The notes beneath the pieces were generated by a model. The model was not told where the DNA came from. It saw only the letters and a list, made by a program, of their open reading frames with translations, and did no database searches. Source: Nostoc sp. TH1S01 (GTDB lineage Bacteria > Cyanobacteriota > Cyanobacteriia > Cyanobacteriales > Nostocaceae). Taken from it: a DNA stretch of 64,000 nucleotides. Position 1 is the first letter of the stretch; every line of letters starts with the position of its first letter. A program made the position numbers and the translations under genes. The stretch lies in NCBI GenBank assembly GCA_018993265.1, contig JAGKSW010000052.1, positions 62,001-126,000 on the forward strand. The letters are read 5' to 3'. Positions 6,885-63,135 of this stretch are shown piece by piece.

Positions 6885-7397
6885 TTAGCTATCGGGTTGT
6901 TGGCGTTGTTCACGGCGCTGTTGGCGATTTTGATGTAATTGCTGAAGTTTGGTTTTTTGTTCGGGAGTCAAAACAGCTTCAATTTGTTGTTTAGAAGATT
7001 CACGTATTTGCCGTATTTGTGCTTTCTGCGCTTCGGTTAAATTCAAATCAGCAAAATCCTTACCACCTCGACGGCCTAAACGTTGACCTGGATTTGCTTG
7101 TCTTTCGGCGCGGCGTGCTTCAATGGCTGCTTTGATTTTTGCTTTTTGTTCTGGGGTGAAAACATTTTCAATTTGAGTGCGGGTGTTACGTTGAATTTGC
7201 TCAATTTGGCTCTTTTGAGCCTCACTCAGACCTAATTCTGCCCAAGGGCCTTTTTTACCTTGCCTGGGGCCTTGTTCTCCGGCTTGGGCAACTAATAAAG
7301 GTGAATGAGATAATGCTTGAGCTTTCATAGCCAAGGATGTTGTAGTCAGAGTCAGAGCGATCGCACCAGCAATTAATGATAATGATTTGAGCTTCAT
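6885..7397 (-). CDS. Spy/CpxP-like periplasmic LTxxQ protein
   Basis: The 170-residue protein has an N-terminal signal peptide (KLKSLSLIAGAIALTLTTTS, cleavage near AQA). The rest is a helical, highly charged mature part with four LTxxQ-like motifs: LSEAQK, FTPEQK, LTEAQK, LTPEQK. This is the signature of Spy/CpxP periplasmic chaperones and stress sensors, which hold unfolded proteins or modulate envelope sensor kinases. It is divergent from a sensor kinase/response regulator pair 230 bp away, with a palindromic site between them, so co-regulation is plausible. The frame continues past its stop into a relic. Confidence 0.8.
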   Translation of the reverse strand: MKLKSLSLIAGAIALTLTTTSLAMKAQALSHSPLLVAQAGEQGPRQGKKGPWAELGLSEAQKSQIEQIQRNTRTQIENVFTPEQKAKIKAAIEARRAERQANPGQRLGRRGGKDFADLNLTEAQKAQIRQIRESSKQQIEAVLTPEQKTKLQQLHQNRQQRREQRQQPDS

Positions 7398-7471
7398 TTT
7401 GTACCTTGTTTTCTAGTCCTTTTAAAGATGTCATCATCATAGGAATTTACTCTTAGGAATCACATGAGGCG

Positions 7472-7503
7472 AAAGTCATGGTTATACCCATGACTTTAGT
7501 CAT
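7472..7503. promoter_or_regulatory. Palindromic operator candidate between spy-like gene and sensor kinase
   Basis: AAAGTCATGG and CCATGACTTT form a perfect 10-bp inverted repeat with a 6-base spacer. The right arm is also part of a second palindrome, ATGACT-TT-AGTCAT (7490-7503). It lies between divergent promoters. The neighbouring NarL-type regulator is the obvious candidate ligand, by inference. Its CATGACTWTAG core recurs twice at 15339-15378. A second small dyad, GGCGGGATT...AATCTCGCC, lies at about 7560-7583. Confidence 0.45.
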
Positions 7504-7630
7504 GCTTTATTTTTGGGTTATTTGAGTAACAATACTAGTACATTCAAGTGACAACAAAAGGCGGGATTAGGTATAATCTCGCCATTTTCTAGTAACGCTC
7601 TTAATCTAGAATCCTAAATCTAAAATTGCG

Positions 7631-8845
7631 ATGAATCAATCTATCCAAATTAATAATCATCCCTTTCGATTTTTGCTGTATTTAGAATGGATATTGCTAA
7701 CTCTGGCTATTTCGACATCTACCTTTCCTGACCCTTCACCGCGCTTTGCTAATCATACCAATCAATTTCCTGAACTTACTATTGGCTGTTTAATTATCTT
7801 TGGTGTCATGGGTTTAAGAATACCCACAGGTAAACCCATAACTAAAATAATTTACACAGCTATTGAAATTTTATTACTATTTATTACTGGGATGTTTGGT
7901 GGTAGAGTTGCGCGGTTATTTCCATTTATCTATTTAATTTTAGTAACTCGCAGTTGTTTAATTTTTCAATTACCTGGACGTTTAGTGGTGACAGGTTTAT
8001 CTTTTTCCTTATTTTTAATTACGTTGAATTCTCGTTTACCTAGAGCTTTACCACCACAAGCCCAAGAACGTTTTCGCTTTATTACTTTCAACACAGCACT
8101 ATTATTTGGATTAAGTTTGGTTTTCGTTTTATTATTGATGAATACAGTATTAGCTGAACGGCAAAGTCGAGAAAAATTAGCGATCGCTAACGAAAAGCTG
8201 CGACAATATGCTTTACGAATTGAAAATCAAGCTACTCTAGAGGAACGCACCCGCATCGCACGGGAAATTCATGATTCTTTAGGACATTCTTTAACTGCAT
8301 TAAATTTACAATTAGAAACAGCTTTAAAATTATGGCAATCCAACCCAGAAAAAGCCCAAACATTTTTAGCTAGAGCTAAAGAACTTGGTTCTAAAGCTTT
8401 AAAAGATGTGCGCCAGTCAGTTTCAACTATGCGGGCTAATCCCTTGCAAGAAAAAACTTTAGAACAGGCAATATCTGCGCTTTTAGAAGATTTTTATCGA
8501 GCTAATGGTATTCTTCCACGTTGTTTTATTAATTTAGATTATCCACCACCCACAGATATTAATATTGCTTTGTACCGGATTATTCAAGAATCATTGACAA
8601 ATATTTCTAAATATGCACAAGCTACAGAGGTAATTATTGCACTAACTAGTAATAAGCAAAGTTTACGTTTGATGGTTCAAGATAATGGTAGAGGTTTTGA
8701 TCTTCAGCAAAATACCACTGGTTTTGGCTTACAAAGTATGCGCGATCGCACTTTAGCCTTGGGTGGTGAATTTAATATTCATACAAGTCCAAATTTTGGC
8801 TGTCAAATTACAGTTGATATTCCTTTATTGAGTGTTGGGCAATGA
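7631..8845 (+). CDS. Membrane sensor histidine kinase (NarL/DesK type, HisKA_3)
   Basis: The 404-residue kinase has about six membrane helices in its first 180 residues and almost no periplasmic domain. A DHp helix follows with the phospho-acceptor His near residue 213 in [17 protein letters not shown], then a C-terminal HATPase domain (N-box [11 protein letters not shown]-boxes DNGRGFD and [10 protein letters not shown]). HisKA_3 kinases of this short-loop type usually sense membrane state or envelope stress. The gene overlaps its response regulator by 4 bases (ATGA). The divergent Spy-like gene suggests an envelope-stress output, which is inference. Confidence 0.9.
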
Positions 8846-9504
8846 TTAAAGTATTGTTAGTAGATGACCAAAATTTAATTCGTCAAGGGCTAAAAGAATT
8901 ATTAAAATTAGAACCAGATTTAGAAATTATTGGCGAGGCAGAAAATGGTAAAGTTGCTGTAGAATTAGCGGCAAAATTACAACCAGATGTTGTGCTAATG
9001 GATATTAGAATGCCGATTATGGATGGAGTTGCAGCTACAAAAGAAATTCATCAAAATTATGAGGACATCAAAATTTTAGTTCTGACAACTTTTGATAATG
9101 ATGAATATGTTTCCGCCGCATTACAACATGGTGCAATGGGTTATTTACTCAAAGATACACCCTCAGAAGAATTAGCTGTAGCAATTCGTGCTGTTCACAA
9201 AGGTTATACCCAACTAGGGCCAGGAATTGTACAAAAACTATTAAATCAGTTTCCGCATGGTATCCCAACACAGTCAGAACCTGTTCCGCCGAGTTTAACT
9301 GAACTGACACCTAGAGAAAAAGAAGTTTTAAAGTTAATTGCTACAGGTGCTAGTAACCGCGAAATTGCCCAAGAATTATATATTTCTGAAGGTACGGTTA
9401 AAAATCACGTCACCAATATTTTGAATCGCTTGAGTTTGCGCGATCGCACTCAGGCTGCTATCATCGCTAATACATTTTTATCTTATTTAAATGAGCCTGA
9501 TTAA
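8842..9504 (+). CDS. NarL/FixJ-family response regulator
   Basis: The 220-residue regulator has a receiver domain with the phospho-acceptor Asp54 in VVLMDIRMP, the acidic pair VDD near residue 8 and Lys in LLKDTPS. A LuxR-type HTH follows at about 150-210 ([22 protein letters not shown] ... [11 protein letters not shown]). Its start overlaps the kinase stop, so the two form a coupled pair. It probably binds the ATGACT palindrome upstream of its own operon. Confidence 0.93.
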
Positions 9505-9530
9505 CATCTCAATTCATCCTATAACGATAG

Positions 9531-9962
9531 TTATTTTTCCATAAACAAAGCCAAACATTCATCTTTTAAAACACCTTTTGTAACCTTGATATTTCTAAAA
9601 GACTTGGCTATTATCTCTTCGCAAAAAATACTAATCTGCGACTGATTTATCGAAATTAAATCTTGGATGGACGCACCGCAGATAATTTCTGATATACCCG
9701 TCCATACACAAGCTGTCGCACACATAGGACAAGGCTCACAAGTCGTATATATGCTGTAACCTTCTAAAGAATGGTTTTTGAGTTTAATTGTTAACTTGCG
9801 AATAACATTTATTTCTGCATGAGCAGATGGGTCACTATCTGTTTGCACAGTATTATATGCTACCTCAAAAACTTCGTCATCCTTGACAATTACAGCACCA
9901 TAAGGCCAATCACCTTTTTTTGCGGCTTCCAGAGCTAAACGCATAAAATATTCTTGGTTCAT
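9531..9962 (-). CDS. CMP/dCMP-type zinc nucleoside deaminase
   Basis: The 143-residue protein has the zinc deaminase motifs SAHAE (His48, catalytic Glu50) and TCEPCPMC (Cys78, Cys81). The PCPMC form and WPYGAVIVKD near the N-terminus resemble guanine deaminase and TadA-like enzymes more than cytidine deaminase. The C-terminal part is diverged, and the substrate (guanine, a pterin or another purine) is not clear. It stands alone, convergent with the response regulator gene. Confidence 0.8.
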   Translation of the reverse strand: MNQEYFMRLALEAAKKGDWPYGAVIVKDDEVFEVAYNTVQTDSDPSAHAEINVIRKLTIKLKNHSLEGYSIYTTCEPCPMCATACVWTGISEIICGASIQDLISINQSQISIFCEEIIAKSFRNIKVTKGVLKDECLALFMEK

Positions 9963-10046
9963 TGTGGTTATTACTAGTTAAAAATCAGGCTCAATCATAT
10001 TCCATATAGATTAAATTTCAGTAAAAGTTTTAAAGGTCGAAAAAAT

Positions 10047-10838
10047 ATGTTAATAAGTAGAGAAAAAACTGAATTTTACTTAACAGACTTGGAAACGCCT
10101 ACTGGTAAAGTTATTAATCTGACAATTGCAGCTTTAGTGCTAATTTCGTCAGGAATTTTTGTTGCCCAAACTTATAATATTCCTTATAATATTAGATTGC
10201 AGCTTGATTTTATTGATACTGCTATTCTGGTAATTTTTGCAGTAGAGTATATTATTCGCCTCTGGAGTGCCGAAAACAAGCTGAAGTATGTTTTGAGTTT
10301 TTATGCAATCTTAGATTTAATGGCGATATTGCCATTTTTCTTAGGCGCAGTAGATATCAGCTTTATTCGCCTTCTCAGATGGTTTCGGATTTTAAGATTA
10401 ATTAGGTTTATTGATCAGAAGTTTTTGTTTGCCAGTGTCAGCAGTGAAGATAGTTTAATCTTCGTGCGGATATTATTTACATTATTTGCAATTATTTTTA
10501 TTTATTCGGGGTTAATTTATCAAGTTGAACATCCCGTAAACCCGCAAGTTTACACTACATTTTTGGATGCGTTTTATTTTTCTGTTGTCACGATGACGAC
10601 TGTCGGGTTTGGGGATGTCACACCAATTTCCGAAGCAGGAAGATTGTTGACAGTATTTATGATTTTAACAGGTGTAACCTTAATTCCTTGGCAAGTGGGA
10701 GATTTAATTAAGCGTTTGGTAAAAAATGCTAATCAGGTAGAAACGGTGTGTTCCGGTTGCGGTTTAGCTTTTCATGATTTAGATGCGGCTTTTTGCAAAA
10801 GGTGTGGGACGAAATTAAGAATTAGCAGTGGCGAGTGA
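10047..10838 (+). CDS. Voltage-gated-like potassium channel with C-terminal zinc ribbon
   Basis: The 263-residue protein has six membrane segments. The S4-like helix carries regularly spaced arginines (RLLRWFRILRLIRF), and the potassium selectivity filter TTVGFGD lies near residues 183-189 before the last helix. An unusual cytoplasmic tail ends in a four-cysteine zinc ribbon, CSGCG ... CKRCG, at about 235-257. The family forms tetrameric potassium channels in the plasma or thylakoid membrane. It lies upstream of the Cys-rich TIGR04222 locus on the same strand with an 87-bp gap, and may not be functionally tied to it. Confidence 0.87.
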   Translation: MLISREKTEFYLTDLETPTGKVINLTIAALVLISSGIFVAQTYNIPYNIRLQLDFIDTAILVIFAVEYIIRLWSAENKLKYVLSFYAILDLMAILPFFLGAVDISFIRLLRWFRILRLIRFIDQKFLFASVSSEDSLIFVRILFTLFAIIFIYSGLIYQVEHPVNPQVYTTFLDAFYFSVVTMTTVGFGDVTPISEAGRLLTVFMILTGVTLIPWQVGDLIKRLVKNANQVETVCSGCGLAFHDLDAAFCKRCGTKLRISSGE

Positions 10839-10925
10839 AAATTAAATTTTTCTAATTTTCCGTAAAAATATTGTTCGCAATTGTAGCATTTGCTCAAGAA
10901 AATCAATTCTGACAGCAGGAGTTGA

Positions 10926-12032
10926 ATGTTACCAATGGATAAGTTATTACTGGCAATTGTAGCGATGTTGCTGATAGTGACCATTCCTAGCCCATTTAGT
11001 AACCCCATCGCTAATATGTATGGGCCACACTTTTTGGTGTTTTATGGTTGTATCATTACTGTAACTATATTTGCCGCCTATTGGAATTTCAAACAAGACG
11101 CAACGACGAAATTACCTTTACCATTAATTCCGGCTAATCCAGATCCTTATAAGATTGCATATTTACGTGGTGGAGAAAATGAAGTTATCCGCTTGGTAAT
11201 ATTTAACTTGACTCAGGATGGTTACTTGCAAATTGAGCGAGATACAATAGAGCGATCGCCTACTCATCCTAACACTAAAAATTTATCTACCATCGAGCTT
11301 CAAGTATTTAACTATTTTTTAGTTCCCCAATCAGCTAGTCAAATATTCCGTTCATCTCTTCCTGATACAATTAGCCACTACTGCACAGTCTATGAACAAT
11401 CACTACTTGATGAGCAACTTTTGTTGCCAGAATCAGCAAGAGAACTAGGAGAAGTAATCAATACGTTAGGAAATTTAATCATTGTAGGTTTAGGTGGTTA
11501 CAAGTATTTCATAGCGTTGTTCAATGAACATACCAATGTTGAGTTTCTCATCTTCATGGGATTTATCTCGTTTTGCGTTTTTCAAAATATCTCTCGTCCA
11601 TCGCGACTAACTCAATTAGGAAAAGCTTACTTAAAGCAACTTCAGCAAAGTTTTGAACAACTTAAAAATCGTGTTTCTCAACCTGTATCTGATTATCCAG
11701 ATGGTACAGAATTTAATATATTGTTGCCTGTTGCTATTTTTGGCACAGGAATTTTATATGGAACTTCATACGCTGATTTTGCTCAGTGTTTCACGCAATC
11801 ATCTGCACAATATGCAAGTACAAGTATAGGTAGTGGTAAAGACGGAAGCTCTTGTGGTGGTGGAAGTTTCTGGGGTGGCGGAAGTTCTTGCAGTAGTGGA
11901 AGTTCTTGTAGTAGTGGAAGTTCTTGCAGTAGTGGAAGTTCTTGCAGTAGCGGAAGTTCCTGTAGTAGTGGAAGTTCCTGTAGTAGCGGAAGTTCTTGTG
12001 GTGGCGGTGGTGGCTGTGGTGGTGGTGGCTAA
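10926..12032 (+). CDS. TIGR04222-type membrane protein with Cys-Ser-Gly repeat tail (1)
   Basis: The 368-residue protein has an N-terminal membrane helix around [17 protein letters not shown] and the conserved segment [22 protein letters not shown], typical of the TIGR04222 family. A central pair of helices and a hydrophobic segment near 265 follow. The last 60 residues are a low-complexity tail built from six-residue units GSSCSS (18-bp DNA repeats at about 11880-12000), ending CGGGGGCGGGG. The function is unknown. The regular cysteines suggest metal binding or enzymatic modification. A paralogue, a small CGGGCGGGD peptide and a DUF692 enzyme follow on the same strand. AGGAG precedes the start. 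Confidence 0.75.
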
Positions 12033-12154
12033 GGCTGAATATGATACAATACTGTGCAGAGTTGAAAAAGCGAGATGTACTAAAAAACCGCTGCCAAGAT
12101 TTTGACAATTGATTGTTCCTAACTTTAGGCATTTCCTAACAAGGAGTAAAAGTA

Positions 12155-13162
12155 ATGGATGCATTACTGCACAATTTCGTTGCAGATATGTATGGGCCGA
12201 ACTTTCTGCTATTGTATGGTATTGTTATCATCGCAACTTTGTTATTGTGTGGGCGGTTAGTCCAAGATCCGACAAAAAATCGGCCTTTACCGCTAATTCC
12301 GGCTGAACCAGATCCTTACAAAATTGCTTACTTGCGTTCTCAAGCAACAGGAATTGCTCATTTAGTATTATTCAATTTGATTCAGCAGGGTTATTTGCAA
12401 GTCAGCAAACAGATTATTAGCAAAGCACCCAACCATCCTGAGATATCAAATTTACAACCAGTCGAACGGCAAGTTTTTGAGAAAATTTCTGAACCTGCTA
12501 CGGCTAAAACATCTTTGTGGTTAGCGACTCAGTGTGTACAGTTATTCTGCAAGGCTTATCAAGAAAAGTTGTATGATGAACAACTGCTGTATGGTGCGAA
12601 GTGGCAAGAAAAGAATATTAACGTCGGCTTAATTGGCGCAATGCTAATTTTTAGCTTGGGTGGTTATAAGCTACTGATAGCTTTAGGTAAGGGACACCAT
12701 AACGTTGGTTTTTTGATAATTATGGGCGTGTCGTCCATTATTTATCTGCTGTGGTATGTGAGTCAGCACAAGTTTCTCAGCCATCTCGGAAAAAGGTATC
12801 TGCAACAACTTCAAACCACTTTCAACAAACTGCGCGAAACTTCTATCGTCAACAACAACTTACTGGTATTAGCACTGTTTGGTGTTGAGTCTTTGGCGGG
12901 AACTACTTACGATGCTTACTATAAAGCATTCTTGCCGCCGGCTTATTCTACGACAAGTAGCCGCAGTAGTTCGTCTAGTAGTTCATGTAGTAGTGGGAGT
13001 TCTTGCGGTGGTGGTAGCAGTTCATGTAGTAGTGGGAGTTCTTGCAGTAGTGGTAGTTCCTGCGGTGGCGGTAGCAGTTCATGTAGTAGTGGGAGTTCTT
13101 GCAGTAGTGGTAGTTCCTGCGGTAGTGGTTGTGGCGGTTGCGGTGGTGGTTGTGGTGGTTAG
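12155..13162 (+). CDS. TIGR04222-type membrane protein with Cys-Ser-Gly repeat tail (2)
   Basis: A 335-residue paralogue of the preceding gene. It has the same N-terminal helix after MYGPNFLLLYGIVII, the [18 protein letters not shown] motif, the DEQLLY segment and paired central helices. Its tail, from about residue 268, alternates SSCSSGSSC and GGGSSSC units and ends CGSGCGGCGGGCGG. The start follows AAGGAG with good spacing. The 122-bp gap to paralogue 1 and the 4-bp gap to the small peptide gene indicate one operon with the DUF692 gene. Likely a membrane-anchored substrate or partner of that enzyme, by inference. Confidence 0.75.
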   Translation: MDALLHNFVADMYGPNFLLLYGIVIIATLLLCGRLVQDPTKNRPLPLIPAEPDPYKIAYLRSQATGIAHLVLFNLIQQGYLQVSKQIISKAPNHPEISNLQPVERQVFEKISEPATAKTSLWLATQCVQLFCKAYQEKLYDEQLLYGAKWQEKNINVGLIGAMLIFSLGGYKLLIALGKGHHNVGFLIIMGVSSIIYLLWYVSQHKFLSHLGKRYLQQLQTTFNKLRETSIVNNNLLVLALFGVESLAGTTYDAYYKAFLPPAYSTTSSRSSSSSSSCSSGSSCGGGSSSCSSGSSCSSGSSCGGGSSSCSSGSSCSSGSSCGSGCGGCGGGCGG

Positions 13163-13166
13163 AGAA

Positions 13167-13334
13167 ATGTTAACTAAACCTGTACCAAGCACAGTTATAA
13201 AATCGCTAATACTCAAGTTACTCATTATCTCACAGGTAATGTGTGTAGTGTTGGCGATCGCTAAAATCATCACAGACATGAATAACGTTGATTTTCTGCG
13301 TTTCTGCGGCGGTGGCTGCGGTGGTGGAGACTAA
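13167..13334 (+). CDS. 55-residue membrane peptide with CGGGCGGGD C-terminus
   Basis: This short gene starts at ATG 13167, four bases after the stop of the second TIGR04222 gene, and ends three bases before the DUF692 start. It encodes a basic N-terminus (MLTKPVPSTVIKS), one hydrophobic helix (about residues 13-35) and the tail DFLRFCGGGCGGGD. The two-Cys Gly tail echoes the end of the upstream paralogue (CGGCGGGCGG). The GGTGGAGA coding the tail also acts as the ribosome site for DUF692. It may be a precursor peptide for the oxygenase. No database family is recognised. Confidence 0.6.
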   Translation: MLTKPVPSTVIKSLILKLLIISQVMCVVLAIAKIITDMNNVDFLRFCGGGCGGGD

Positions 13335-13337
13335 AAA

Positions 13338-14174
13338 ATGATGTTTCAACTTCCTACTTTGGGTGTCGGGTTGGGTTTTCGTGAACCATTCAAAAGTGAT
13401 TTGTTTCTCAACCGTCAACAAGTGGACTTTCTCGAAATTGTGGCGGAACATTATCTTGATGCACCCGTACAAAAACAACAGGAATTAGAAATACTGGCTG
13501 CACATTTCCCGATAATTCCCCACGCCATTAATTTGTCGCTGGGTAGTGCGGAAGGTTTAGATACAGATTATTTACGCAAACTTGCTGCACTCATTCAACA
13601 AGTTAACCCGCCTTGGTGGAGTGAACATATTTGTTTTACCAAAGCTGGCGGTGTGGATATTGGGCATTTGTCACCCTTACCTTACACCAAAGAGGCGGTA
13701 GATATACTCTGTCGCAATATTGCCGAGGTGCGGCGCTTTGTTGATGTGCCGTTAATTCTGGAAAATATTACCTATATGGTCAAACTTCCTGGTGCAGAGA
13801 TGACAGAAGCGCAGTTTTTGGCAGAAGTGGTAGAACGTGCTGACTGTGGGTTGCTGTTGGATGTGACGAATTTACATACCAATGCGGTGAATTATGGTTA
13901 TGATGTCCAAGATTTTCTCAATGATTTACCTTGGGAACGTGTTGTGCAGTTGCATTTTGTCGGTGGACATTGGCACGATGGCGTATTAATTGATAGTCAT
14001 TCTCAGTCCACACCAACCGAAGTCTGGCAAATAATGGCGGAAGTTGTAGCCCGCATTCCCGTGAAAGGGATAGTGTTAGAACGGGATGAAAACTTACCCC
14101 CGTTTACAGAAATAGCCCAAGAATTGCAAACAGCACGAAAAATTATGAACGCATATTTTACACCAGGCGGTTGA
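13338..14174 (+). CDS. DUF692 multinuclear iron oxygenase (MNIO, MbnB/TglH/BufB-like)
   Basis: The 278-residue TIM-barrel protein has the metal-ligand pattern of DUF692: HAINLSLGS, WWSEHICF, LENIT, LLDVTNLHTNA, LHFVGGHWHDG, DSHSQ and LERDEN. Characterised MNIO enzymes oxidise cysteine in ribosomal peptides, giving oxazolone/thioamide in methanobactin, thiooxazoles, or Cys beta-carbon excision. Here it lies 3 bases after a Cys-containing peptide gene and downstream of two Cys-rich membrane proteins, the likely substrates. It starts with two adjacent ATGs. The partner protein usually needed may be the 195-residue product downstream. Confidence 0.9.
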   Translation: MMFQLPTLGVGLGFREPFKSDLFLNRQQVDFLEIVAEHYLDAPVQKQQELEILAAHFPIIPHAINLSLGSAEGLDTDYLRKLAALIQQVNPPWWSEHICFTKAGGVDIGHLSPLPYTKEAVDILCRNIAEVRRFVDVPLILENITYMVKLPGAEMTEAQFLAEVVERADCGLLLDVTNLHTNAVNYGYDVQDFLNDLPWERVVQLHFVGGHWHDGVLIDSHSQSTPTEVWQIMAEVVARIPVKGIVLERDENLPPFTEIAQELQTARKIMNAYFTPGG

Positions 14175-14194
14175 AGTCACAGTTCATCTTGCAC

Positions 14195-14278
14195 ACAGAC
14201 AAAACTTTCTCCTCTGCCCCCCTGCTTCCTCTGCCCCCTCTGCGTTCTTAATAATAAGTCTTTCAGCAAATACGATAT
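14195..14278. repeat. MITE family 1, degenerate right part
   Basis: The pyrimidine-rich core (CCTCTGCCCCCCTGCTTCC) followed by AATAATAAGTCTTTCAGCAAATACGATAT matches the right half of MITE family 1 with a degraded end. It separates the DUF692 gene from its probable partner gene. Confidence 0.5.
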
Positions 14279-14293
14279 TAGGAGTTATCAAAG

Positions 14294-14881
14294 ATGGGGT
14301 TAGCACAAACCCAGCAAGTTTTAGCCCAGCTTTACACCAATACTGAATTTAGACAGCGTTTTTTCGCCAACCCGCAAGCGGTGGGTGTGGAGTTGGGTTT
14401 GAGTGATGATGAAGTACAAAAGTTAGCCGAAGTTTCATCACAGGAAGTCAATATATTTGCCAATTCTCTCAAGTGGAAGCGGTTAGGGGAAATACGGGAA
14501 CTTTTACCCAGAACGGCTAAGGTGTTGGGGAAAAATTTTAATACCTTGTTTTGGCGATATGCAGAGACTTATTTACCCACGGGAATTAAAAAACATCGGG
14601 ATGATGCGATCGCTTTTGCTAACTTTATGATTAAGGTGGCGCAAAATGAAAACTTAGAACCTGCTTGGATAGGTGATTTAGTCAGGTATGAACAAACTTG
14701 GCTGTTAGCTTATCAACCTGGAGTTTGTTTAAAATTTTGTTGGTTGCGTTACGCCATCCATCGTGATTTTACGGCAAAACCAACTTTGGCAATCTGGTGG
14801 CGTTTATCGGGGCGATCGCAGTTACGTCATATAATATTACCTCACGCAGAGGCGCGGAGAGTATCAGGAGTTTTAGATTAG
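14294..14881 (+). CDS. Probable MNIO partner protein
   Basis: The 195-residue mostly helical soluble protein starts MGLAQTQQVLAQLYTNTEFR, with a short helical domain (RFFANPQAVGVELGLSDDEV). A second helical part contains WIGDLVRYEQTWLLAY. The position just after DUF692 and the second motif resemble the helical partner proteins (BufC/DUF2063-like) that bring substrates to MNIO enzymes, though I cannot confirm family membership. The last residues (LPHAEARRVSGVLD) are encoded by a dispersed repeat (CTCACGCAGAGGCGCGGAG), so the natural C-terminus may have been replaced. An 8-base gap leads to the DUF202 gene. Confidence 0.55.
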   Translation: MGLAQTQQVLAQLYTNTEFRQRFFANPQAVGVELGLSDDEVQKLAEVSSQEVNIFANSLKWKRLGEIRELLPRTAKVLGKNFNTLFWRYAETYLPTGIKKHRDDAIAFANFMIKVAQNENLEPAWIGDLVRYEQTWLLAYQPGVCLKFCWLRYAIHRDFTAKPTLAIWWRLSGRSQLRHIILPHAEARRVSGVLD

Positions 14882-14888
14882 TTTACTC

Positions 14889-15326
14889 ATGAATAAAATA
14901 GACCGCCAGAGAGAACATCAAGCCAATGAACGAACTTTTTTAGCTTGGTTGAGAACTTCTATTGCCTTGATTGGGTTTGGTTTTGCCATTGCCAGGTTTG
15001 GTCTATTTTTACGCCAATTAAATACAGCAATTACGCAACAAGAACCTGTAGTTCATCCTTTATTTAACTCTGAGAATTTAGGAGTTGCTTTAGTAATTGT
15101 GGGAGTAGGTGCGATCGCCTTAGCCGCGTGGCGATATAATCAGGTTTTCTGGCAAATTGAACGGGGAGATTATCAACCCAATCGTTTAGCAGTTTGGATT
15201 CTCACCGCAATCGTGATGATTTTAGGCTTATTGAGTATTCCTCTACTATTTTTACGTAATCATATTACGCCGCGTCCGTCTTCAATATCACCTCAGCCAC
15301 AATCTAAAAATATTAACCCAAAATAA
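14889..15326 (+). CDS. DUF202 (YidH-type) membrane protein
   Basis: The 145-residue protein has the DUF202 signature REHQANERTFLAWLRTSIALIGFGFAIARFG at its start, then membrane helices near 60-80 and 105-125 and a Pro/Ser-rich tail. The family function is unknown. It lies 7 bases after the MNIO partner gene on the same strand, so it may be the last gene of that operon. Confidence 0.85.
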   Translation: MNKIDRQREHQANERTFLAWLRTSIALIGFGFAIARFGLFLRQLNTAITQQEPVVHPLFNSENLGVALVIVGVGAIALAAWRYNQVFWQIERGDYQPNRLAVWILTAIVMILGLLSIPLLFLRNHITPRPSSISPQPQSKNINPK

Positions 15327-15805: not shown

Positions 15806-18800
15806 ATGAGTCAAACCTTTGCAACCATCGACGGGAATGAAGCTGTTGCCCGTGTTGCTTACAAATTAAATGAAGTAATTGCTATTTATCCTATTACTCC
15901 CTCTTCCGCGATGGGTGAATGGGCGGATGCTTGGTCAGCAGAAGGTCGTCCCAATCTTTGGGGTACGGTTCCCAGCGTTGTGCAGATGCAAAGTGAAGGT
16001 GGTGCGGCTGGTGCAGTTCATGGGGCATTACAAACAGGTTCTTTGAGTACCACATTTACAGCTTCTCAGGGACTATTGTTAATGATTCCTAACCTCTACA
16101 AAATTGCGGGGGAACTCACTAGCACAGTTGTTCATGTGGCTGCACGCTCATTGGCTACTCATGCTTTATCCATTTTCGGCGATCATAGTGATGTGATGGC
16201 GGCGCGGGCGACTGGCTTTGCCTTGTTGTGTTCCGCTTCAGTGCAAGAAAGTCACGACTTAGCCCTCATCGCCCATGCAGCGACTCTCAAATCAAGAGTT
16301 TCGTTTATGCACTTTTTTGACGGGTTCCGCACCTCTCATGAAGTGCAGAAGGTGAAATTGCTGGCGGATGACGATATTAAATCGCTCATTCCCGACGAAT
16401 TAATTTTAGAACACCGCGCCCGTGCTTTAACTCCAGACCGCCCTGTGTTGCGGGGTACTGCCCAAAACCCTGATGTTTACTTCCAATCGAGGGAAGGCGC
16501 AAACCCTTACTACAACGCCTGTCCAGAGATTGTCCAGAACATCATGGATCAATTTGGCGATCGCACAGGTAGATATTACCGCATTTTTGAATATCACGGT
16601 GCTGAAGATGCGGAACGGGTAATTGTCATCATGGGTTCTGGTTGTGAAACTGTCCATGAAACAGTTGATTATCTCAACGCCCGTGGGGAAAAAGTCGGCG
16701 TGGTGAAAGTACGCCTCTACCGTCCCTTTGATATCCAAAGGTTTGTGCAAATGTTACCAGAAACTGTACAAGCGATCGCGGTTTTAGACCGCACAAAAGA
16801 AGCAGGTAGCGCCGGCGAACCACTATATCTCGATGTGGTTGCAGCTATCCACGAAATCTATGCTGAACGCGGTAGTGGTAGAGACAAAGTTCCCTCGGAA
16901 ATTGTCGCTGCCCGTGGTAGCGGCAGAGACGAGGTTCCCTCAGAAATTGTCGCTGCCCGTGGTAGTGGTCGAGACAAGGTTCCCTCAGAAATTGTCGCTG
17001 CCCGTGGTAGTGGTCGAGATCAAGTCCCACCGATGATTATCTGTGGTCGTTACGGCCTTTCCTCCAAGGAATTTACTCCCGCGATGGTGAAGGCCGTTTT
17101 CGATAACCTCGACCAACCAAAACCAAAAAATCATTTCACTGTGGGTATTCACGACGATGTTACCCACACATCCCTTTCCTTTGACCCCAACTTTTCCATC
17201 GAACCCGATAGCGTCGTCCGGGCAATGTTCTACGGCTTGGGTTCCGATGGTACAGTGGGGGCAAATAAAAACTCCATCAAAATTATCGGTGAGGGAACCG
17301 ATAACTACGCCCAAGGTTACTTTGTCTACGACTCGAAAAAATCCGGTTCCATGACCGTATCTCACCTGCGGTTCGGGCCGCAACCGATACGGTCTACCTA
17401 CCTGATAGACAAAGCTAACTTTATTGGCTGTCACCACTGGGTATTTCTAGAAAAGGTCGATGTACTGCAAGGGGCGGCAACTGGCGCGACAATTTTGTTA
17501 AACAGTCCCTTTGATAAAGAAACGGTTTGGCAAAATCTCCCCCTGAAAGTGCGACAGCAAATTTTAGATAAACATCTGAAATTGTATGTGATTAATGCCA
17601 ACCAAGTCGCCCGTGAAAGTGGTATGGGAGGACGCATCAATACAATTATGCAAGTGTGCTTCTTTGCCTTAGCTGGGGTATTGCCACAGGCAGATGCGAT
17701 CGCCAAAATTAAAAAGGCGATCGAAAAGACTTATGGTAAAAAAGGCGCAGATATTGTCCGTATGAACTTGCAAGCGGTCGATATGACACTGGATAATCTG
17801 CATCAAGTCAATATCCCCACCGCAGAACAAGGTAAATGGCTAGATGAGGAATTATTCTCGACCAATTCCTTACCTGTGAGTGCGCCTGAATTTATCCAAG
17901 AAGTCTTGGGTAAAATCATGGTTTGGCAAGGTGATGATTTACCTGTCAGCGCCTTACCAGCAGATGGAACCTTCCCCACAGGTACAGCCAAATGGGAAAA
18001 ACGCAACGTCGCCCAAGAGATCCCTGTTTGGGAACCGGATGTCTGCGTACAATGCAGTAAGTGTGTAATGGTTTGTCCGCACAGTGCCATCCGTGGCAAA
18101 GTTTATCAAGAAAGTGAATTAGCTAATGCACCGTCCGCTTTCAAGTCGGTGAATGCCAAAGATAAAGATTTTAATCATCAAAAATTTACTATTCAAGTTG
18201 CTCCCGAAGATTGTACAGGTTGCGCTATTTGTGTCAATATTTGTCCTGCTAAAAGTAAAACTGAACCGACGAAAAAAGCCATTAATATGGCGCAGCAACT
18301 ACCTTTAAGAGAACAAGAAAAGCAAAACTGGGATTTCTTTTTAAACTTACCCAACCCCGACCGGAGAAATTTAAAATTAAACCAAATTCGTCAACAACAA
18401 TTACAAGAACCCTTATTTGAATTTTCTGGTGCTTGCGCTGGTTGTGGTGAGACACCCTATTTAAAATTATTAACACAATTGTTTGGCGATCGCTCAGTTA
18501 TTGCCAACGCTACCGGCTGTTCCTCCATCTACGGTGGCAACTTACCCACCACCCCTTGGACAACTAACGCTGACGGCCGCGGCCCGGCTTGGTCGAATAG
18601 TTTATTTGAAGATAACGCCGAGTTTGGTTTTGGTTATCGCCTATCTATAGATAAACAAACAGAATTTGCTGCCGAATTATTACAACAAATCAGCAGTGAA
18701 GTAGGTGATAATCTCGTTAATTCCATCCTCAGTGCCGAACAAAAAAACGAAGCAGATATTTGGAAACAACGAGAACGTGTCGCATTATTAAAAGATAAAT

Positions 18801-19528
18801 TAGAACACATTTTAACTTCTGCGATCGACCCTAATTTAAAATCTAAAATTATCAATTTAAAATCAATTGCAGATTACTTAGTTAAGAAAAGTGTCTGGAT
18901 TATCGGCGGTGACGGTTGGGCCTATGATATTGACTTTGGCGGTATTGACCATGTGTTAGCCAGTGGTCGCAACGTCAATATTTTGGTGATGGATACAGAA
19001 GTATATTCTAATACTGGCGGTCAATCTTCCAAAGCCACCCCCAAAGCAGCCGTAGCGAAATTTGCCGCCAGTGGTAAGCCTGCACCCAAAAAAGACTTAG
19101 GCTTAATGGCGATGAACTACGGTAATGTTTATGTAGCGAGTGTAGCTTTAGGTGCAAAAGATGACCACACCCTCAAAGCCTTTTTAGAAGCCGAAGCTTA
19201 CGACGGCCCATCATTAATTATTGCCTACAGTCATTGCATCGCTCATGGCATCAACATGACCACCGGGATGAATCACCAAAAAGCCTTGATAGAATCAGGG
19301 CGCTGGTTATTATATCGCCACAATCCCCTATTAAAAGAACAAGGTAAGAACCCCTTGCAATTAGATATGCGCCCTCCTACACAATCTGTAGAAGCATCCA
19401 TGTATCAAGAAAATCGCTTCAAAATGCTGACCAAGAGTAAACCAGAAGTTGCCAAGCAATTGTTAGAACAAGCACAAGCCGAAGTTGATGCCCGTTGGCA
19501 AATGTATCAATATTTAGCGAATAAGTAG
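15806..19528 (+). CDS. nifJ: Pyruvate:ferredoxin (flavodoxin) oxidoreductase
   Basis: The enzyme oxidatively decarboxylates pyruvate to acetyl-CoA and reduces ferredoxin or flavodoxin, for fermentation and for electron supply to nitrogenase. Domains in order: N-terminal pyrimidine-binding domain (AIYPITPSSAMGEWADAW), CoA and gamma domains (RFGPQPIRSTYLI), a two-cluster ferredoxin domain (CVQCSKCVMVCP and CTGCAICVNICP near 750-815), a further Cys pair (GACAGCGETPY) and the C-terminal TPP domain (IGGDGWAYDIDFGG, YSNTGGQSS). At 1240 residues it exceeds the usual length of about 1200, because four 15-residue repeats lie at about residues 355-410. The repeat keeps the frame and all cofactor motifs are intact. 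Confidence 0.96.
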   Translation: MSQTFATIDGNEAVARVAYKLNEVIAIYPITPSSAMGEWADAWSAEGRPNLWGTVPSVVQMQSEGGAAGAVHGALQTGSLSTTFTASQGLLLMIPNLYKIAGELTSTVVHVAARSLATHALSIFGDHSDVMAARATGFALLCSASVQESHDLALIAHAATLKSRVSFMHFFDGFRTSHEVQKVKLLADDDIKSLIPDELILEHRARALTPDRPVLRGTAQNPDVYFQSREGANPYYNACPEIVQNIMDQFGDRTGRYYRIFEYHGAEDAERVIVIMGSGCETVHETVDYLNARGEKVGVVKVRLYRPFDIQRFVQMLPETVQAIAVLDRTKEAGSAGEPLYLDVVAAIHEIYAERGSGRDKVPSEIVAARGSGRDEVPSEIVAARGSGRDKVPSEIVAARGSGRDQVPPMIICGRYGLSSKEFTPAMVKAVFDNLDQPKPKNHFTVGIHDDVTHTSLSFDPNFSIEPDSVVRAMFYGLGSDGTVGANKNSIKIIGEGTDNYAQGYFVYDSKKSGSMTVSHLRFGPQPIRSTYLIDKANFIGCHHWVFLEKVDVLQGAATGATILLNSPFDKETVWQNLPLKVRQQILDKHLKLYVINANQVARESGMGGRINTIMQVCFFALAGVLPQADAIAKIKKAIEKTYGKKGADIVRMNLQAVDMTLDNLHQVNIPTAEQGKWLDEELFSTNSLPVSAPEFIQEVLGKIMVWQGDDLPVSALPADGTFPTGTAKWEKRNVAQEIPVWEPDVCVQCSKCVMVCPHSAIRGKVYQESELANAPSAFKSVNAKDKDFNHQKFTIQVAPEDCTGCAICVNICPAKSKTEPTKKAINMAQQLPLREQEKQNWDFFLNLPNPDRRNLKLNQIRQQQLQEPLFEFSGACAGCGETPYLKLLTQLFGDRSVIANATGCSSIYGGNLPTTPWTTNADGRGPAWSNSLFEDNAEFGFGYRLSIDKQTEFAAELLQQISSEVGDNLVNSILSAEQKNEADIWKQRERVALLKDKLEHILTSAIDPNLKSKIINLKSIADYLVKKSVWIIGGDGWAYDIDFGGIDHVLASGRNVNILVMDTEVYSNTGGQSSKATPKAAVAKFAASGKPAPKKDLGLMAMNYGNVYVASVALGAKDDHTLKAFLEAEAYDGPSLIIAYSHCIAHGINMTTGMNHQKALIESGRWLLYRHNPLLKEQGKNPLQLDMRPPTQSVEASMYQENRFKMLTKSKPEVAKQLLEQAQAEVDARWQMYQYLANK
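16868..17030 (+). repeat. 45-bp in-frame tandem repeat inside nifJ
   Basis: Three near-identical 45-bp units and a partial fourth encode RGSGRDKVPSEIVAA, RGSGRDEVPSEIVAA, RGSGRDKVPSEIVAA and RGSGRDQVPPMI. They lie between the helix ending IHEIYAE and the conserved CGRYGLSSKEFTP. Because 45 is a multiple of 3, copy-number change keeps the protein in frame. Confidence 0.9.
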
Positions 19529-61866: not shown

Positions 61867-63135
61867 ATGTCACGTTCACCTTCCCCCTGGCTTTACATCC
61901 CCACCCTATATTTCGCCTCCGGTGTACCTTACATCATCATCAACACCGTCTCCGTCATCTTTTACAAAAAACTCGGCGTAGACAACACCCAAATTGCCGT
62001 ATGGACAAGTCTTCTCTATCTCCCTTGGGTCATTAAAATGTTCTGGGGGCCAATTGTTGATACTTACTCCAGCAAACGCAACTGGATACTCTACACGCAA
62101 CTCGCAATGTTCTGTTGCTTGGGTTTAGTTGCCTTTTGCTTACAATTACCGAATTTCTTTTTTATCTCCCTCGCAGCCTTAACAGTGGGAGCATTTATTT
62201 CTGCAACTTATGATATTGCTACAGATGGCTTTTATCTATTAGCTTTAAGCCCCGAACAGCAAGCTTTTTTTGTAGGCATTCGCTCATTATTTTATCGAAT
62301 GGCGGTGATTTTTGGTTCAGGACTATTAGTTGTTTTAGCGGGACAGCTTGAAGGCTATCTCAAGAATATTCCCTTAAGTTGGACTGTAGCCATTGGTTTT
62401 TCGGCGGTAGTTTTAGCCATACTTTCTCTGTTTCACCGTTTCAGTTTACCCTTACCCGATTCTGATCAACCACGGCAGTTACAAGCCACAGATAAAATCC
62501 CATTCTGGACAATTATTAGTTCCTATTTTGCCCAAGAAAAAATTCTGTTCATTCTAGCATTTATCTTGCTTTACAGATTTGGCGAGGCGATGCTTGTCAA
62601 GTTTGCTTCTTTATTTTTGTTAGATAAACCAGAGGCGGGAGGATTAGGTTTATCGACCTCTGAGGTTGGTTTAGTATACGGCACATTCGGCGTAATCTCA
62701 CTCATTGCTGGCGGGATTTTGGGGGGATTGGTTATTGCCAAATATGGCTTAAAAAAATGTTTATTCCCGATGGCTTTAGCCTTGAATTTGCCAGATATAT
62801 TTTATGTCTATATGGCTTATACTAAACCTGCTATCAACTTAGTTTATCCGTTGGTTTCATTAGAACAGTTTGGTTATGGTTTTGGGTTTACAGCTTTTAG
62901 TGTGTACTTAATGTATGTTTCCCAAGGGGAATATAAAACATCCCATTTTGCTATATCTACTGGCATCATGGCTTTAGGGATGATGCTACCTGGAATAGTT
63001 AGCGGTTATTTACAACCGTTATTAGGATATCCATTGTTTTTTAGTTTGGTTTGTTTGCTGACGATTCCGGGAATGATTGTTTTATTTTTCATCCCCTTAA
63101 AAGCAGAAGCACAAAAAAGAGCGATCGCACATTAA
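61867..63135 (+). CDS. MFS permease, AmpG/SLC33-like
   Basis: About 12 membrane helices over 422 residues. The start is ATG 61867; an earlier TTG lies inside the inverted repeat and is unlikely. Features include YFASGVPYIIINTVS, KMFWGPIVDTYSSKRNW after helix 2 and ISATYDIATDGFYLL in helix 4, the pattern of AmpG/SLC33 transporters (anhydromuropeptide or acetyl-CoA). The next gene, 4 bases on, encodes an N-acetylglucosamine-kinase-like ATPase, which supports import or recycling of wall amino sugars. Confidence 0.82.
   Translation: MSRSPSPWLYIPTLYFASGVPYIIINTVSVIFYKKLGVDNTQIAVWTSLLYLPWVIKMFWGPIVDTYSSKRNWILYTQLAMFCCLGLVAFCLQLPNFFFISLAALTVGAFISATYDIATDGFYLLALSPEQQAFFVGIRSLFYRMAVIFGSGLLVVLAGQLEGYLKNIPLSWTVAIGFSAVVLAILSLFHRFSLPLPDSDQPRQLQATDKIPFWTIISSYFAQEKILFILAFILLYRFGEAMLVKFASLFLLDKPEAGGLGLSTSEVGLVYGTFGVISLIAGGILGGLVIAKYGLKKCLFPMALALNLPDIFYVYMAYTKPAINLVYPLVSLEQFGYGFGFTAFSVYLMYVSQGEYKTSHFAISTGIMALGMMLPGIVSGYLQPLLGYPLFFSLVCLLTIPGMIVLFFIPLKAEAQKRAIAH

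Follow-up and report, generated by a model that had tools for sequence, protein, structure and literature searches.

Nostoc sp. TH1S01 carries, on positions 62,001 to 126,000 of contig JAGKSW010000052.1 (assembly GCA_018993265.1), a compact locus in which two membrane proteins of the TIGR04222 family – T1 and T2, both with long C-terminal tails rich in cysteine, serine and glycine – are followed by an MNIO (DUF692) enzyme and a putative partner protein of PME-type 2. This 64,000-nucleotide stretch, referred to here as the window, comes from one contig of a genome of 7.65 Mb, and the enzyme, the partner and the two tails together span less than 4 kb of it. We propose that the locus is probably a cassette that modifies membrane-tethered tails, and that the TIGR04222 tails are likely to be substrates of the MNIO enzyme. 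The locus is a well-conserved further example of a published proposal.

In that proposal, as set out in its main text, Antoine et al. 2025 (PMC12452194) collected over 3,500 TIGR04222 proteins whose C-terminal Ser/Gly-rich regions contain Cys, linked the family to MNIO genes and PME-type 2 partners, and put forward a subset as MNIO substrates. An earlier note on this DNA had presented the system as possibly new, a claim that falls to this precedent. The string 'cyanobacter-' is absent from the main text of that paper, and no publication on cyanobacterial TIGR04222-MNIO loci was found in the open-licence PMC library, in which two papers mention TIGR04222.

Conservation of the cassette

Among 145 Nostocaceae genomes, counted irrespective of kinship, 35 have a match to the enzyme and 27 (the window's included) an intact orthologue, defined as full-length with at least 80% identity to the window enzyme. 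A TIGR04222 gene lies upstream and a partner gene downstream of the enzyme in all 26 intact loci of the other genomes, and the cassette thus exceeds chance; a conserved neighbourhood, which the earlier note had set as a check, is what these loci have. Of the 35 stretches compared around enzyme matches in other genomes, three are damaged loci (L063 is missing the T2 end and the beginning of the enzyme, and L065 and L066 hold fragments of both genes), five contain other MNIO subfamilies with 34-42% identity and are without the cassette, and one gave no match in the local comparison.

Enzyme and partner go together across the sample: 27 genomes have both, none has the enzyme only, one has the partner only, and 117 have neither. 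These figures use the 28 strong partner matches (E <1e-70, a line drawn after the list was seen) among the 34 genomes with any partner match, and the partner-only genome, G052, has a broken enzyme. The six weak partner matches either stand beside another MNIO subfamily (G061, G092 and G111) or are fragments (G002, G070 and G122). TIGR04222 proteins above the cut-off occur in 44 of the 145 genomes, all 27 enzyme genomes among them.

A search among named records, which reached close relatives only and overlaps with the 26 loci, returned Nostoc as the source of the nearest relatives of the window enzyme and provided 30 named loci. The enzyme is full-length in 29 of these, with an adjoining TIGR04222 gene in 28 of the 29 and a partner in 27. 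The sole TIGR04222 exception, L086, carries a Cys-tailed gene of the family at another place in the genome; as to the partner, none is nearby in L091, and a contig end cuts L094. Four of the 29 loci, L092-L095, are non-cyanobacterial by record title, with enzymes at 59-63% identity; the non-cyanobacterial records are two acidobacterial ones, in one of which the contig end cuts off the partner side, Candidatus Uabimicrobium and a deltaproteobacterial metagenome-assembled genome.

The MNIO enzyme

The enzyme aligns to positions 1-262 of the 263 in the PF05114 profile, far above the cut-off of 25 bits. Its predicted iron ligands – H62, H97, E142, D175, N178, H206, D219, H221 and E248 – were placed by motif and by alignment to TglH, for which a structure names nine iron ligands (PMC10880893). 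The earlier note had pointed to the DUF692 metal ligands as a check, and all nine TglH ligands have counterparts here; the nine positions are invariant in 14 aligned sequences ranging from cyanobacteria to acidobacteria. The best NCBIfam models are BufB (249.5 bits, cut-off 310) and HvfB (216.8 bits), both of which score under their cut-offs, and ChrH scores 68.3 bits against a cut-off of 600. That the enzyme reaches no NCBIfam equivalog cut-off weighs against our proposal, and its chemistry is not readable from a model name because the BufB and HvfB scores are under the cut-offs.

The partner protein

The earlier note recognised a helical partner-like protein downstream of the enzyme, and structure prediction agrees with this. 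No DUF2063 match was found in the partner by a Pfam scan, and a model built from 16 aligned sequences (mean pLDDT 85.6) has TglI (8hi7) as its top Foldseek match, with an E-value of 1.0e-5. VIA-align Z-scores are 13.0 (8hci) and 11.7 for TglI, 10.3 for NGO1945 (3dee) and 6.2 for MbnC, and the four best-ranked structures represent three different MNIO partner proteins. Helical folds make middling Z-scores weak when taken alone; the ranking of three MNIO partners at the top is the stronger point, and the model supports an MNIO-partner fold.

The N-terminal 45-60 residues of the partner (window 14294-14475) resemble the Os1348/NHLP RiPP domain. The corresponding model, NF038399, is reached at E 0.01 or better by 15 of the 16 aligned partners, and the window protein scores 33.7 bits against a cut-off of 40. 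Some proteins annotated as Os1348-family NHLP RiPP precursors may, by this resemblance, be MNIO partners instead. Separately, a C/T-rich stretch of 119 bases (14175-14293) divides enzyme and partner genes in the window, unlike most loci whose sequence was read, where the last bases of the enzyme gene overlap the partner's start codon.

The TIGR04222 proteins and their tails

T1 and T2 both exceed the curated TIGR04222 cut-off of 43 bits (Table 1), and their N-terminal helices look like membrane anchors. An 18-base repeat unit, present in 8.6 copies in the T1 tail and 7.9 copies in the T2 tail, codes mainly for Cys-Ser-Ser-Gly-Ser-Ser in both. In an alignment of 20 enzyme-linked proteins, in which the repeat register is loose, T2 tail residues C322, G323, C329 and G330 are invariant and C326 is nearly so, and the Cys and Gly of this terminal module are kept from Nostoc to the acidobacteria. 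A serine before the Cys was considered as a mark of enzyme-linked tails and dropped on inspection by eye, as the Uabimicrobium tail has Gly there. The T2 model (mean pLDDT 78, pTM 0.64; the remaining four models score lower) places long hydrophobic helices at residues 14-35, 148-179 and 185-203, the first two flanking a domain, and leaves the tail disordered; a Foldseek search with this model found no known fold at E 0.001 or better.

The named genes were confirmed on the + strand from the sequence and the open reading frames of the window (Table 1). The gene set and its coordinates are as the earlier note described them.

Table 1. Positions in the window of the cassette genes, their tails and the adjoining DUF202 gene
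Feature	Position	Strand	Basis
T1, TIGR04222 membrane protein, 368 residues, with extra N-terminal hydrophobic helix and Cys/Ser/Gly tail	10926..12032	+	TIGR04222 74.2 bits; relatives upstream of MNIO gene
T1 tail, with an 18-base repeat that encodes (CSSGSS)n and, after it, CGGGGGCGGGG	11843..12029	+	Tandem array 11843-11999; sequence
T2, TIGR04222 membrane protein, 335 residues, with Cys/Ser/Gly tail	12155..13162	+	TIGR04222 80.9 bits; model with three long hydrophobic helices
T2 tail, Cys/Ser/Gly repeats and terminal Cys-Gly module	12965..13159	+	Tandem array 12980-13129; alignment of 20 proteins
55-residue frame, remnant of a third TIGR04222 paralogue (T3) shortened in frame by an internal deletion, keeping the first helix and a short Cys-Gly end	13167..13334	+	Full-length T3 at this place in L033-L038; shared junction in Nostoc sp. 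FACHB-110
MNIO (DUF692) enzyme, 278 residues	13338..14174	+	PF05114 307.7 bits; nine iron-ligand positions
MNIO partner (PME-type 2), predicted TglI-like fold, 195 residues	14294..14881	+	Predicted structure compared with TglI
DUF202 protein	14889..15326	+	73.9 bits

A possible mechanism

We suggest that the TglI-like partner would recruit the TIGR04222 membrane proteins by their C-terminal tails, presenting these to the multi-iron MNIO enzyme. That enzyme would oxidise tail cysteines, most likely the Cys before Gly in the terminal Cys-Gly module; the Cys-Ser repeats would be less sure sites of modification. The terminal sites are expected to be modified first because 5-thiooxazole enzymes prefer Cys-Gly – FonBC has this preference, and its FonA substrate has Cys-Gly target sites (PMC13097082) – and because the Cys positions of the module are among those conserved in all or nearly all of the 20 enzyme-linked proteins. 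Precedent for a large substrate exists in the phylum, as a 34 kDa precursor is modified by a cyanobacterial MNIO from a different subfamily (PMC12636315). The modified tail would stay attached, giving a membrane-tethered array of modified cysteines, and on the cytoplasmic membrane face this array would, we suppose, bind copper or another soft metal.

These parts differ in how firmly they can be put. Thiooxazole-type chemistry, suggested by analogy, is plausible but falls somewhat short of probable, and the binding of copper or another metal, carried over from the bufferins and captophorins, is more tentative still. A further-reaching version, in which protein-scale tethered tails are never exported or released and form a cytoplasm-facing array of oxidised cysteines across several paralogues, for example as a copper buffer, strikes us as possible but rather unlikely.

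Side of the membrane

In all 20 enzyme-linked proteins the number of lysines and arginines per residue is higher for the domain side together with the segment following the third helix than for the other side, and by the positive-inside rule this excess would place domain, segment and tail in the cytoplasm. The last hydrophobic segment is split into helices of 8 and 4 residues in the T2 model, which at its middling confidence contains no continuous fourth membrane helix. A cytoplasmic tail also agrees with a soluble enzyme and with the published correlation between PME-type 2 partners and precursors that lack a signal peptide (PMC12452194). From these sequences and the T2 model we favour, with some reserve, tails at the cytoplasmic side of the membrane, and the surface array envisaged in the earlier note finds no backing in the charge counts or the model.

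Several observations weigh on the other side. In several proteins the charge difference is slight (0.156 against 0.133 at the narrowest), and the T2 model is, as said, of middling confidence. The Kyte-Doolittle mean of the last hydrophobic segment is at least 1.6 in five of the 20 proteins and reaches 2.24 in one MNIO-free protein, while three of the 20 fall short of 1.6 in the second helix, which is assumed to span the membrane; the hydropathy measure thus gives no clean separation, so that a fourth membrane crossing is possible. By the same charge rule, moreover, the Cys end of the 55-residue remnant described below, a remnant that two genomes retain, would lie outside. Together with the periplasmic tails predicted by Antoine et al. 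2025 (PMC12452194) in their main text, these points would suit a tail that is modified in the cytoplasm and then exported, to face the periplasm like a tethered bufferin. We hold this to be the doubtful alternative, given the positive-inside count (20 of 20, some narrowly), the lack of a continuous fourth helix in the model, and the association of PME-type 2 partners with precursors that have no signal peptide (PMC12452194). If the tails are indeed cytoplasmic, the TIGR04222 tails are not periplasmic metallophores, which would be a concrete conflict with the published topology.

A shrunken third paralogue

Three bases separate the stop codon of a 55-residue frame from the MNIO gene. This frame, which ends CGGGCGGGD, was read in the earlier note as a small membrane peptide and one of the substrates. 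It has no TIGR04222 match by profile search, and a FeoB-associated match was set aside as weak (15.1 bits, cut-off 27). A full-length TIGR04222 gene, T3, is present between T2 and the enzyme in six other genomes of the same genus (L033-L038), coding for 346-351 residues when counted from the start codon homologous to that of the 55-residue frame; a seventh genome of the genus (L039) is without it. In three genomes examined residue by residue, the first 46 residues of T3 match the frame with few changes, and T3 has a Cys-Gly end. DNA alignment to L036 contains a single internal gap: before it, window positions 13160-13303 match the T3 start, and after it, 13312-13400 match the T3 end and the sequence past it. 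By this comparison the 55-residue frame is what is left of a third TIGR04222 protein and would contribute little, if anything, as an additional substrate.

Nostoc sp. FACHB-110 (from 9826 in L068) has the identical deletion junction; its frame, too, has 55 residues, and it ends CGCGGCGGD. The window and FACHB-110 differ by about 17% of DNA positions over 7084-13051 and are 93% identical from the peptide through the enzyme, and because of this local identity common descent and exchange of the deletion are both possible. A separate remnant of 43 residues without Cys is found in L079, and T3 has lost its tail in L043; with the deletion, these indicate that T3 decayed more than once. Two Nostoc genomes, about 17% apart in the DNA upstream, keep the peptide in frame, with two and three Cys at its end. 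This would fit a true small precursor that is the main substrate, but we consider such a role very improbable: a full TIGR04222 gene occupies the same place in six genomes of the genus, other loci without the peptide still keep the enzyme and TIGR04222, and the L079 version has decayed.

Cys tails without the enzyme

Not every Cys-tailed TIGR04222 protein has an MNIO enzyme at hand. In a phylum-wide sample of 386 cyanobacterial genomes, TIGR04222 is found in 22 and PF05114 in 28; the two genes adjoin in nine genomes and lie on separate contigs in one (G468), and 12 TIGR04222 genomes have no PF05114 match. A number of findings here count against the tails as substrates. Seven of these 12 MNIO-free genomes have at least four Cys in the last 60 residues of a TIGR04222 tail (in one of the seven, G246, the protein is under the TIGR04222 cut-off). 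Within the Nostocaceae, where 17 TIGR04222 genomes are without an intact enzyme in a search using the window enzyme rather than PF05114, nine of the 16 genomes whose tails were read have at least four Cys (G052, with a truncated gene, was left out). The ending CGGGCGGCGG or a close variant also occurs in MNIO-free genomes and is therefore no signature of the enzyme; CGGGCGGCGG itself terminates proteins of G152, G468 and several Nostocaceae. Across bacteria, one third of TIGR04222 genomes are reported to be without MNIO genes (PMC12452194, main text).

Most Cys-tailed MNIO-free proteins have a longer architecture, with an N-terminal extension; in the six proteins examined, some 145-215 residues precede the first hydrophobic helix. 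A Cys tail is missing from four proteins with neither the extension nor an enzyme (those of G017, G083 and G093, and one of the two in G065). In G190, an assembly with 9% contamination, the enzyme is absent and a short form does carry a tail. The Cys-Gly tail is, as far as these sequences go, a trait of the wider TIGR04222 family, and the enzyme accompanies one branch of it. In ten loci without a nearby enzyme (L124-L133, one of them from G468) inspection by eye turned up no gene shared by every neighbourhood; L129 and L130, which are related, both have a methyltransferase-like neighbour.

The tails could then work unmodified, as thiol or metal-thiolate clusters or as a structural end, with the MNIO enzyme acting on another target or on only a few terminal Cys-Gly sites; the similar tails in seven of the 12 MNIO-free genomes and in nine of the 16 Nostocaceae genomes without a match to an intact window-type enzyme, and the lack of a common neighbour in the ten loci, would be expected if so. 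We nevertheless find it improbable. TIGR04222 adjoins the enzyme in 28 of the 29 named loci, no other shared Cys-rich gene was seen among the loci listed, where no systematic test was made, and enzyme-linked tails are richer in Cys, with 6-11 in the last 60 residues in nine enzyme-linked genomes against 2-9 in the 12 MNIO-free ones (Mann-Whitney p 0.003, uncorrected for kinship; G468, with 8 Cys, left out). The earlier note's view of the Cys-tailed proteins as substrates stands as likely, and the step from Cys tail to MNIO substrate is weakened by the MNIO-free tails.

The long TIGR04222 proteins without an adjacent enzyme (L124-L129; e.g. L127:5658-7028) have a further feature, in that a hydrophobic helix in mid-protein ends in a lipobox-like Cys (ITSC, ITGC, LTSC, LTAC, VAGC or TVGC), possibly an internal lipoprotein signal. 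The N-terminal extension in L128 is weakly GRDP-like (PF07173, 14.5 bits).

Relationship to known systems

The TIGR04222-MNIO clusters described in the main text of Antoine et al. 2025 (PMC12452194) resemble the window cassette in having a C-terminal Cys/Ser/Gly region, an adjoining MNIO gene and a DUF2063-like partner without the DUF2063 signature. They are mostly from Actinomycetota, whereas the window cassette is cyanobacterial, and cassettes of its kind have long repeat tails and as many as three paralogues in tandem; their tails are predicted to be periplasmic, and the topology evidence for window-type tails favours the cytoplasmic face. The bufferins and captophorins (BufB, HvfB and FonB) provide the nearest MNIO models and share Cys-Gly sites of the kind described for FonA. 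They differ in their small signal-peptide precursors, as opposed to the TIGR04222 membrane proteins here; bufferin clusters have a DUF2063 partner of PME-type 1, whereas the window partner is without the DUF2063 signature, and the window enzyme is under the BufB and HvfB cut-offs.

TglHI, of the 3-thiaglutamate pathway, shares the nine iron ligands and the partner fold, but TglA is described as a 50-residue scaffold whose C-terminal Cys is added from tRNA, whereas the multi-Cys tails here are genetically coded on membrane proteins. The ChrH-family clusters (MelA1, PMC12636315), from the same phylum, likewise have an MNIO enzyme acting on a protein-sized precursor ending in a Cys motif, but are reported with another MNIO subfamily, a CPACGMG motif and secreted precursors.

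Neighbouring genes

The DUF202 gene, included as part of the system in the earlier note, is downstream of the cassette in just seven of the 26 intact loci, all of the window's genus, and among the 30 named loci only in L069-L073; it does not belong to the conserved set. A voltage-gated K+ channel gene (10047-10838) lies upstream of the cassette in many loci and was rejected as a component of it: a strong match (best E 4e-55 or better) occurs in 131 of the 145 Nostocaceae genomes, against 27 with the enzyme, with a weak match only in 12 and none in two. The channel has a C-terminal Cys4 zinc-ribbon-like end. A NarL-type two-component pair (7631-9504) precedes it in many Nostocaceae cassette loci. 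Downstream, a pyruvate-ferredoxin-oxidoreductase-like frame (15806-19528) contains an in-frame repeat, SEIVAARGSGRD, at about 16870-17050.

Implications

The MNIO family is growing fast, and its TIGR04222 branch is one of its large proposals, for which this locus offers a compact test case. To that proposal it adds a cyanobacterial branch whose paralogues stand in tandem and have long repeat tails, a predicted structure that backs the partner assignment, near-perfect co-occurrence of enzyme and partner within one family, MNIO-free controls and a differing predicted topology. The shrunken T3 supplies a naturally shortened third candidate substrate, and the MNIO-free Cys-tailed relatives are natural controls. 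If the array indeed stays tethered and functions in place, its mode of action would be unlike that of the secreted bufferins or methanobactins.

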